Shown in pieces: positions 22,093 to 26,911 of a stretch of 26,911 bases of DNA. The first letter of the stretch is position 1. Every line of letters begins with the position of its first letter. A program made the translations under genes and the position numbers. Origin of the DNA: a virus. The stretch spans positions 1 to 26,911 of IMG/VR virus record IMGVR_UViG_3300035035_000013; one strand, 5' to 3'. The notes under the pieces were generated by a model. That model had not been told where the DNA came from. It ran no database searches and was given only the letters and a program-made list of their open reading frames with translations.

Positions 22093-22128
22093 TTTGTGGA
22101 TTATAAAATTCCAGGAATTATTTGTCCT
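22093..22128 (-). promoter_or_regulatory. Sigma70-like promoter overlapping hli stop
   Basis: AGGACA (22128-22123, four of six matches to TTGACA), a 17-base spacer, and a perfect TATAAT (22105-22100). The predicted start, near 22093, falls at the beginning of the riboswitch. The promoter lies in the last codons and stop of hli, so it would make riboswitch-peptide-capsid transcripts apart from the upstream operon, using host RNA polymerase. Confidence 0.65.
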
Positions 22129-22235
22129 GTTGTTAGGTATGTACCTACAGCTATAACAAAACCTAGCATTGCTAGTCTGCCATTTAGCTCTTCAGCTACA
22201 TGCCATTTGTCGCCTTCGTGGTTGTGGTGTGTCAT
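22101..22235 (-). CDS. hli: High-light-inducible protein (Hli)
   Basis: This is a 44-residue thylakoid membrane protein that binds chlorophyll and protects photosystems under stress. The sequence is a His-rich start (MTHHNHEGDKWHV), the motif A14-E15-E-L-N18-G-R20-L-A-M-L-G-F that places Glu, Asn and Arg for pigment binding and helix pairing, a hydrophobic helix (to about 36), and TGQIIPGIL at the end. That ending is the signature of phage-type and multicopy Prochlorococcus Hli proteins. The start ATG 22235 overlaps the stop of the 77-residue gene by ATGA. Phages carry hli to keep photosynthetic energy flowing during infection, and the presence of this gene marks a cyanobacterial host. No psbA is seen in the window. 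Confidence 0.95.
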   Translation of the reverse strand: MTHHNHEGDKWHVAEELNGRLAMLGFVIAVGTYLTTGQIIPGIL

Positions 22236-22623: not shown

Positions 22624-22679
22624 TACTTCTTCTTGCCTCCATGTTTACAGCCACACTTAGATCCTTTCTTGTGTGCCAT
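22623..22679 (-). CDS. 18-residue Cys/His/Lys micro-gene
   Basis: The ORF encodes MAHKKGSKCGCKHGGKKK. The C9-G-C11-K-H13 cluster could hold a metal ion. It is bounded by TAATG overlaps on both sides, in a chain of similar basic genes, which supports translation despite the length. Function is unknown. Confidence 0.65.
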   Translation of the reverse strand: MAHKKGSKCGCKHGGKKK

Positions 22680-22927
22680 TAGCATTTCCATCTACGTAGT
22701 GCCAACGCTTTACGGGTTGGCTTTCCGTTGGGCTTTTTCATTGGCCCTTTAACTCCCTTCATGCGAGCACAAAAGGAACGCTTACGAGCCCCACCTTGAG
22801 GCTGAGGAGCCTTGAGGTTGGAGCCAGTAGCTCTATTATATTTTGCTCTGCCCTTAGCTGTAAGCCCACCCTTGCGGGATTTCTCACCTCGACCTAAAGA
22901 CAGACTTACACCTTTTTTGCGAGCCAT
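22679..22927 (-). CDS. DUF6321-like small basic protein
   Basis: This is an 82-residue protein, MARKKGVSLSLGRGEKSRKG, then GGLTAKGRAKYNRATGSNLK and a second half with GGARKRSFCARMKGV and PNGKPTRKALALRRWKC. The GGLTxKGRxKYNRxTGSxLK and RKxSFCAR blocks are a recognised marine-phage family (DUF6321). It is very basic, has Cys near 53 and at the C-terminus, and is joined by TAATG at both ends. Its position beside scaffold and capsid suggests an assembly or packaged-protein role, unproven. Confidence 0.88.
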   Translation of the reverse strand: MARKKGVSLSLGRGEKSRKGGLTAKGRAKYNRATGSNLKAPQPQGGARKRSFCARMKGVKGPMKKPNGKPTRKALALRRWKC

Positions 22928-25858: not shown

Positions 25859-26041
25859 TTATTCTCCTTTGAGTTTTTCTTTTAGTATACGTATTATTGA
25901 TAATTGACCAGCTCTATAAGATATTTCTTTCTCCGATAGGGTGTGGTCTGGAAACTTGTCTGGGAACTGTTCATCTAGTTCATCAACGATGAGTTGGATG
26001 CGTCCCCAATCAAGCGTACTTGGGTAAATTGGTGTTTGCAT
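25859..26041 (-). CDS. 60-residue unknown protein after RNR beta
   Basis: I choose ATG 26041 (MQTPIYPSTLDWGRIQLIVD). The longer frame begins with TTG at 26083 and would overlap the RNR beta gene more deeply. The protein has an acidic middle (DELDEQFPDKFPDH) and a C-terminal helix (EISYRAGQLSIIRILKEKL). The 32-nt overlap with the upstream gene suggests coupling. No motif is recognised. A small cyanophage accessory protein is the best description. Confidence 0.7.
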   Translation of the reverse strand: MQTPIYPSTLDWGRIQLIVDELDEQFPDKFPDHTLSEKEISYRAGQLSIIRILKEKLKGE

Positions 26042-26726
26042 GTTCAAAAAATGCGGGCATGCGGGCTCGCTTTGTATCGGCAAGCTGTGGAGCTTTACCT
26101 TCGTACATTAGACGGTCACTTGAATCCGTCCAAAATTTTCTGCTTAGATATTTGTTAGGTGCTATGTCAGCCAATGGTTCAAAGATCCAATTAATTGTAG
26201 CTTTCCTAAGTTTGTCCAAAGAAGAGCTAGGGCGTAGACCCATATCAGCACAAACCAAACTGTTGCAAGCGACATGAATTTGCTCATCTCTGGAAATATC
26301 AGCCGATACTGTCCTAAGAGCAGCATCGCCACAAAAGCGATTGAAAGGTAAAATAACAAAGAATACAGCACGTTCTGCTACCAAGGCTTTTAGTATAGTG
26401 TGGTCAGGGTGAGCTATCCACGCATCACGTAGTAGCTTTGCCTCTTTCTCAGCTTTGGCATCTAGTCCGTGGACATCAGCAACGTAGCCAAGAGCTAGGT
26501 CATGTCTCTCCTCGTCCTTTACGTTTGATTCGAGCAGTACTCTAGCAGTATCGGGAACCTCTTTGCTAAGGGTTTCCGTAATAAAGGAACCAACAGGAAG
26601 CTCCATATGCCGTACTGCAAGAGCACGGTAGATGGCTTCTTCACTTCCTTCCATGAGTTTTCCTTTCGTGGGCTTAACGGGAGTCCACTTTCTTTTCCTG
26701 TGTAATAACTTATCATAAGGGTTCAT
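26010..26726 (-). CDS. nrdB: Ferritin-like di-iron protein, probable class I RNR beta subunit
   Basis: This is a 238-residue helical protein with two ExxH pairs, E72-E-R-H75 (KDEERHDLALGY) and E148-Q-I-H151 (RDEQIHVACN). Candidate bridging carboxylates are E30 or E42 and E119. This is the ferritin/R2 four-helix metal site. The preceding gene ends like an RNR alpha tail, so it is most likely the beta subunit that generates the radical for deoxynucleotide synthesis. It is short for NrdB (usually over 320 residues). The residue four after H75 is Leu79, where class Ia enzymes have the radical Tyr. Cyanopodovirus RNRs, once called class II, have been reassigned to class I with a beta of this kind. 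A different ferritin-like oxidase is the alternative. The start overlaps the alpha stop by ATGA. Confidence 0.75.
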   Translation of the reverse strand: MNPYDKLLHRKRKWTPVKPTKGKLMEGSEEAIYRALAVRHMELPVGSFITETLSKEVPDTARVLLESNVKDEERHDLALGYVADVHGLDAKAEKEAKLLRDAWIAHPDHTILKALVAERAVFFVILPFNRFCGDAALRTVSADISRDEQIHVACNSLVCADMGLRPSSSLDKLRKATINWIFEPLADIAPNKYLSRKFWTDSSDRLMYEGKAPQLADTKRARMPAFFEHANTNLPKYA

Positions 26727-26911
26727 TCTTCACAACCTATGCACTTAATGGGTTCGAGTATTCCGCTCAAGTAATCGTCAACCTCAGTCTCATCTAATGC
26801 AGCAAAGGCACTAGACTTATCCTGTGTATCTCCCATAACTTGAAGCGAGTAGTATAAAGATGTTTGAGGACTATCTAACCACTCTTGGATAAACTGTTCA
26901 TCATAGGTCAC
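26723..26911 (-). CDS. C-terminal end of probable RNR alpha subunit (partial)
   Basis: The frame is open to the window edge, leaving 62 residues. The GTG at the edge need not be the start. SPQTSLYYSLQVMGDTQDK resembles the C-terminal K-T-L-Y-Y region of class I RNR large subunits. The end, EPIKCIGCEE, carries a CxxC as in the redox tail that re-reduces the RNR active site. It is followed by the di-iron beta-like gene with an ATGA overlap. The assignment rests on this short tail and the neighbour, so it is moderate. Confidence 0.6.
   Translation of the reverse strand: MTYDEQFIQEWLDSPQTSLYYSLQVMGDTQDKSSAFAALDETEVDDYLSGILEPIKCIGCEE

Follow-up and report, generated by a model that had tools for sequence, protein, structure and literature searches.

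A probable class O ribonucleotide reductase of a T7-like cyanophage, with a tyrosine-less beta subunit and a glycine/lysine split near its first metal ligand

Introduction

A ribonucleotide reductase (RNR) beta subunit without the radical tyrosine was described for phage P-SSP7 in the main text of Harrison 2019 (PMC6370689), with the metal ligands E-E-H-E-E-H plus D-D, and a subclass If ('Cyano SP') was proposed for it. Class O was named in Burnim 2022 (PMC9531940), whose main text gives its beta subunit a length of about 240 amino acids, with Phe or Leu at the tyrosine site and a C-terminal Tyr. The same main text describes class O as the smallest RNR known, places it near the class I/II split and presents a cryo-EM structure of the S-CBP4 alpha subunit in which a Tyr-Tyr dyad is resolved; the finger-loop motif of the class is given as NVCLE in parts of the literature. 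Class O beta can be unstable without metals, and the main text of Burnim 2022 (PMC9531940) presents it as still to be characterised, no beta of this class having been shown to be active; a 2026 preprint (PMC12918982), in the part of its text available, still calls the class biochemically uncharacterised.

In classes Ic and Id, Glu serves as metal ligand 1 and the metal cluster as oxidant (PMC6370689, PMC8463856, PMC6754362). The sections on class Id in two of these papers (PMC8463856, PMC6754362) describe a Lys four residues after ligand 1 (Lys71, Lys174 and Lys243 in three species) that reaches toward the metals and is proposed to attract superoxide to the dimanganese site. This Lys marks a subgroup only and is inferred there to derive from Gly, as a later arrival.

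Here we describe an RNR gene pair at the end of a window of 26,911 nucleotides, the whole stretch of viral DNA that was analysed (IMG/VR record IMGVR_UViG_3300035035_000013, positions 1 to 26,911). The missing tyrosine has already been reported for class O/If; what is new here is the scale of the census, the alpha tails and a split at position 46 of beta.

Results

Identification of the gene pair

A reading frame of 238 residues on the minus strand (window positions 26010-26726) encodes a putative di-metal protein, which its translation and its match to phrog_6799 identify as the candidate beta, or ferritin-like, subunit of a class O (Cyano SP) RNR. In a profile search, residues 1-238 matched phrog_6799, a family annotated as RNR class Ia beta, with E = 1.3e-129; judged by such scores, the family identification is confirmed far beyond chance. 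By tblastn, the window beta subunit matched 56 phage records, with query coverage of at least 80% in 56 of 56. Going by their names, all come from cyanophages or uncultured phages; identity is 60-80% in 48 of them and lower in the other 8. The P-SSP7 subunit is 73.5% identical to the window subunit (tblastn), and contig L004 encodes one that is 99% identical. The first-pass annotation had called the protein about 100 residues shorter than usual, which agrees with the average lengths in the main text of Burnim 2022 (346 residues for class I beta and 240 for the class O ferritin-like subunit; PMC9531940).

Directly upstream lies the 3' end of an RNR alpha gene (26723-26911, minus strand), with 62 codons in the window and the 5' part past the window end; its stop codon and the start codon of beta share four bases (ATGA). 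The upstream frame matched phrog_367 as an RNR alpha C-terminus (E = 8.9e-7, profile search). Within it, the motif SLYYSL holds a Tyr-Tyr dyad (26849-26854, minus strand), assigned to radical transfer from the sequence and the class O structure, and the protein ends in CIGCEE, whose CIGC (CxxC; 26732-26743, minus strand) is the putative redox pair. The window alpha is cut before the catalytic cysteines, which are present in the alpha subunit of L004. That subunit is complete (467 amino acids), its last 62 residues are identical to the window alpha tail, it carries the finger loop NVCLE, and it matched the solved class O alpha 7urg with E = 3.6e-208; in a test for an ATP cone, a domain that class O alphas lack, its only Pfam match at E<=0.01 was the barrel family PF02867. 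The earlier reading depended on the upstream gene being an RNR alpha, and the phrog_367 match, the dyad, CIGC and the likeness of the L004 alpha to 7urg all bear this out.

The arrangement is widespread among relatives. An upstream frame with the Tyr-Tyr motif was found in all but 15 of the 219 loci whose sequence extends 250 bases or more beyond the start of beta, and the dyad lies near the end in 147 of 148 distinct alpha tails. Of the 163 alphas of relatives that reach 400 amino acids or more, 161 have the finger loop NVCLE and 2 have NVCEE.

Genome context

In the window, beta is followed by two small ORFs and then by the portal and scaffold genes, an order also seen in Syn5, SS120-1, P-SSP7 and NATL2A-133. 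A high-light-inducible (hli) gene of 44 residues at 22101-22235 (minus strand; phrog_178, E = 2.3e-18) points to a cyanobacterial host, and hence to a cyanophage. It sits between the scaffold and capsid genes, and hliP of P-SSP7 likewise follows the scaffold gene. An 82-residue basic ORF at 22679-22927 (minus strand) resembles a tail domain encoded as a gene of its own: it matches several families of larger phage proteins over their C-terminal ~70 residues.

Some loci elsewhere depart from the paired arrangement. In Microcystis phage Mic1 (L082) and loci L107-L114, the class O beta is divergent (35% identical) and has no adjoining alpha. For Mic1 and the L112 contig, alpha lies elsewhere in the genome; that of Mic1 (74739-76061, with beta at 61615-62385) retains NVCLE, TTYY and CPAC. 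Calothrix membranacea FACHB-236 encodes a class O beta in which every ligand is present (L102, 4001-4717), with a tRNA-Pro gene some 250 bases away. Searches of its 8.8 Mb assembly by protein and by PF02867 found no alpha; the draft may lack the alpha, or this beta may be an orphan, perhaps within a mobile element.

Predicted fold of the beta subunit

An AlphaFold2 model of beta built from a 93-sequence alignment has a mean pLDDT of 92.4 and a pTM of 0.89, with a weaker C-terminal part (pLDDT 61-76 per ten-residue block). Its best matches are class I R2 proteins, namely 2rcc_B (Z 20.0; 3.0 A over 218 residues), class Id 6sf4_B (Z 19.8; 3.1 A over 217 residues) and class Ic 4m1i_A (Z 19.6; 3.1 A over 218 residues); because Z gaps of less than 1 are ties, the fold does not tell which subclass beta resembles.

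The sequence similarity to class I beta profiles is weak. A profile search against solved structures reached R2 chains, the best of them at E = 0.014, and phmmer of the window beta against solved structures gave chance matches only, to an unrelated sperm protein (E ~0.3). The window beta had no match in a Pfam scan at E up to 1; PF00268 was matched at this threshold by 17 of the 93 family members (best E = 1.8e-5), the window beta not being among them.

Census of the metal site and relay residues

Relatives were gathered from viral contigs, genome contigs and phage records; each collection scan took its best 80 loci, so that the sample leans to close relatives of the queries. Merging identical rows among 250 HMM hits left 203 distinct sequences, of which 199-202 cover each position because L103 was split into two rows by a frame break, L104, L105 and L114 are truncated where their contigs end, and in the S-CBP4 record the beta frame (L086) terminates early. 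The search peptides held D71-E72, H75, E118, E148 and H151, and W14 too in two scans; positions 46, 79 and 237 fall in none of them.

The candidate ligands, all encoded on the minus strand, are conserved throughout the matches listed, a conservation that is partly built in where the residues lay inside the search peptides: Glu42, ligand 1 and Asp in class Ia/Ib (26601-26603), which corresponds to P-SSP7 E42, in 201 of 201; the segment D71-E72-E-R-H75 (26502-26516), with the second-sphere Asp and ligands 2 and 3, each in 201 of 201; Glu118, ligand 4 (26373-26375), in 202 of 202; and the segment D147-E148-Q-I-H151 (26274-26288), with the relay Asp and ligands 5 and 6, D147 and E148 each in 200 of 200 and H151 in 199 of 200, the remaining one being X. 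Both ExxH pairs noticed at first pass are thus present, at residues 72-75 and 148-151. Trp14 (26685-26687, minus strand), likely the relay Trp and presumably the counterpart of W48 of E. coli R2, was found in 199 of 199 distinct sequences among the matches listed, a count partly built in by the two scans whose peptides held it. The penultimate residue, Tyr237 (26016-26018, minus strand), which would act as a Y356-like inter-subunit relay Tyr, is invariant (199 of 199 among the matches listed).

Leu79 (26490-26492, minus strand), four residues after His75, stands at the position of the class Ia/Ib radical Tyr, as had been proposed. The register comes from a profile-profile comparison with an alignment of the E. 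coli proteins NrdB and NrdF and four beta subunits from phages, in which E72, H75 and L79 align with the E. coli NrdB residues E116, H119 and Y123 (numbered from Met1; E = 2.3e-4, probability only 44%, both profiles being shallow). Among the matches listed, residue 79 is Leu in 198, Phe in 3 and Tyr in 0 of 201 distinct sequences, and the listed carriers of Phe79 are SS120-1 and two genome-contig loci. The missing Tyr is therefore a fixed family trait and not a local loss. Nor does another Tyr visibly substitute for it: among Tyr 4, 81, 193, 208 and 237, the residues counted (Y33 was outside the count), only Y237, the C-terminal relay residue, is invariant in the matches listed. The relay is invariant while the Tyr is lost across the family, which argues for a working, Tyr-independent enzyme rather than decay.

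Asp76, beside the ligand His75 (26499-26501, minus strand), is conserved in 199 of 201 sequences among the matches listed. It is an extra acidic residue that by helix geometry would face the metals, and it is absent from the residue table in the main text of Harrison 2019 (PMC6370689).

A Gly/Lys split at position 46

Gly46 (26589-26591, minus strand), four residues after ligand 1, occupies the Lys71 position of class Id and is replaced by Lys in a sister clade. Among the matches listed, this position is Gly in 144, Lys in 54, Arg in 2 and Ala in 1 of 201 sequences, and the preceding V45 is invariant. We mapped the Lys/Arg46 label on a 92-row tree, for which column 46 was left out, rows were mainly <92% identical, and rows of <225 residues or with X were dropped. 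The label required two changes, against 24 in shuffles, so that Lys/Arg46 characterises a clade, L101 being the one exception. The tree brings the long branches of Mic1 and Calothrix together, and the change may therefore have run from Gly to Lys or the other way. The Lys46 clade comprises S-CBS4-like siphoviruses and Syn5/SS120-1-like podoviruses, and the Gly46 clade comprises P-SSP7-like phages and the window phage. The first-pass annotation had missed this split, as well as the class O/If naming. In the literature searched, including the main texts of Burnim 2022 and Harrison 2019, we found no description of it: 'lysine', 'Lys71' and 'superoxide' are absent from the former (PMC9531940), and in the latter (PMC6370689) 'lysine' is absent and 'superoxide' occurs in the references only.

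The alpha tails were compared with this residue in 181 distinct alpha-beta loci, which comprise 102 Gly46/CXC, 19 Gly46/CXXC, 56 Lys46/CXXC, 2 Arg46/CXXC and 1 Ala46/CXXC pairs and 1 false tail match. Unlike most of its Gly46 relatives, the window alpha ends in the CXXC motif CIGC; of the 122 tails in this group, 102 have CXC and 19 have CXXC, the last being the false match. This tail is found in the window phage and its nearest relatives, with CDC or CNC in the rest of the Gly46 group. We do not claim that CXXC was regained from a CXC ancestor in the window phage: the tree needs two changes, and its well-supported branches force one.

The segment beginning at ligand 1 reads ELPVGSFI in the window beta, ELPVKDFL in S-CBS4, EVAVKSFW in F. 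johnsoniae and ELGIGCYW in S-TIM5. The residue four positions after ligand 1 in E. coli NrdB is also Gly, so that only Lys is telling. No helix break after ligand 1 was seen in the predicted models of the window beta and of a Lys46 member, in which metals were not modelled and helix 29-53 is unbroken; according to the class Id sections of PMC8463856 and PMC6754362, the helix is unbroken in the metal-free class Id crystal too, the break belonging to the metal-loaded form.

Comparison with described classes

The window pair combines the length, adjacency, ExxH and Asp pair, Leu79, penultimate Tyr, dyad and CXXC of class O. Like the S-CBP4/7urg system, it has a beta subunit of 238-240 amino acids directly after alpha, a penultimate Tyr and a Tyr-Tyr dyad, and Leu/Phe at the tyrosine site is common to S-CBP4 and the window beta. 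With the Cyano SP/If enzyme of P-SSP7 it shares the E-E-H-E-E-H plus D-D ligand set, the absence of Tyr and the gene order, and the residues tabulated in the main text of Harrison 2019 (PMC6370689) are without difference between the two.

Other classes diverge further. Class Ia/Ib enzymes have an Asp as ligand 1 and a radical Tyr, whereas the window beta has Glu42 and Leu79; class Ie loses metal-binding carboxylates, whereas the window beta keeps all six ligands. The class Ic NrdB of Chlamydia trachomatis resembles the window beta in its Glu ligand 1 and non-Tyr radical site, but it is longer and has a second-sphere Glu (E119) where the window beta has Asp71 (201 of 201 among the matches listed). 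Class Id NrdB (NrdBi; F. johnsoniae, L. blandensis and S-TIM5) has, like class O, Glu as ligand 1 followed by Gly or Lys at +4. However, class Id proteins are longer, with the Tyr retained and a Trp at +7, where the window beta has Leu79 and Ile49; from the subgroup of class Id with Lys at +4, the window beta differs further by its Gly46.

Discussion

The window pair is likely the class O (Cyano SP, proposed If) RNR of a T7-like cyanophage, in which a metal-centred oxidant would replace the tyrosyl radical. The earlier description of an alpha/beta pair with a Tyr-less beta, linked to the reassigned cyanopodovirus RNR, has held up in each of these parts, and the mixed-metal or modified site that it suggested is possible.

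From the observed gene pair, residues, conservation and predicted fold we infer a metal identity, an oxidant and an electron path. Beta would bind two metal ions through E42, E72, H75, E118, E148 and H151, and these metals, on reacting with oxygen or one of its reduced forms, would yield an oxidant that takes the place of the tyrosyl radical. This oxidant would be high-valent and centred on the metals, with Mn2 (the class Id arrangement) or Mn/Fe (that of class Ic) as the cluster. The oxidising equivalent would pass along H75-D147-W14, then from Tyr237 to the alpha Tyr-Tyr dyad and on to the finger-loop Cys, which would start ribonucleotide reduction, and the oxidised active site would be re-reduced through the alpha C-terminal CIGC. 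Phage-encoded glutaredoxin was found in 0 of 21 phage records, and the search for phage-encoded thioredoxin gave one sub-threshold match only (Syn5; 1 of 21 records). A Glu as ligand 1 together with the absence of Tyr is the class Ic layout, and the Glu is common to class Id, which favours a Mn-containing metal-centred oxidant; such an oxidant feeding the retained Trp-to-Tyr relay appears the most likely arrangement. Chemistry at a Trp or another residue, or an external radical source, is possible.

Which Mn-containing cofactor this would be is the main point on which readings differ. A class Id-like dimanganese site, with superoxide as the activator, is given a little less than an even chance; here the lysine gate would serve the Lys46 clade, and the Gly46 clade, including the window beta, would be activated otherwise. 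This reading accords with the Glu ligand 1, the invariant V45 and the Gly or Lys at +4 as in class Id, and with the photosynthetic host indicated by the hli gene. NrdI was found in 0 of 21 phage records, some of them IMG/VR records that may be incomplete, in a search whose positive control worked, so that these phages show no evident flavodoxin of the class Ib kind. Class Id, however, keeps the Tyr and the Trp at +7, both of which class O is without; the Gly at +4 is shared with E. coli NrdB; and the unbroken helix 29-53 in both predicted models also speaks against this reading, though the metal-free class Id crystal is likewise unbroken.

A class Ic-like Mn(IV)/Fe(III) cofactor, activated by oxygen without superoxide, is a tentative reading that falls short of an even chance. 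The Glu ligand 1, the Leu or Phe at the tyrosine site and the presence of 4m1i_A among the best fold matches agree with it, but the tied fold ranks do not discriminate, class Ic has Glu where the window beta has Asp71, and Cyano SP lies apart from class Ic in the trees of Harrison 2019, as given in its main text (PMC6370689).

It is improbable that an ordinary diiron site oxidises another residue, such as Tyr81 or Trp103, to a stored radical. Both residues are common among the matches listed (residue 81 is Tyr in 188 of 201 and W103 is Trp in 200 of 201), but 12 of the same listed sequences carry Phe and 1 carries Asn at residue 81, by ideal helix geometry Tyr81 would face away from E72, H75 and L79, and ligand 1 is Glu, unlike in class Ia/Ib. 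On this conservation and predicted geometry, we rejected Tyr81 as a substitute radical site. That beta is not an RNR subunit at all, but an unrelated ferritin-like protein beside alpha, would suit its lack of a Pfam match at E up to 1 and is nevertheless very improbable, given that beta follows a Tyr-Tyr alpha in nearly all loci, that R2 folds match at Z up to 20 and that the relay residues are invariant.

Returning to a Mn-containing oxidant, one specific form of it is that class O beta is Mn-dependent with two activation modes, a superoxide-lysine mode that the Lys46 clade gained independently of class Id and another route in the Gly46 clade; as a whole, we consider this proposal rather unlikely. 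If it were true, RNR evolution would have reached the superoxide-lysine solution on two occasions, and on the second of these in tyrosine-less enzymes of phages whose hosts produce oxygen. The Gly/Lys split offers a concrete protein pair for comparing metal and superoxide dependence, and together with the missing-Tyr census it bears on the radical source of the smallest RNR class.
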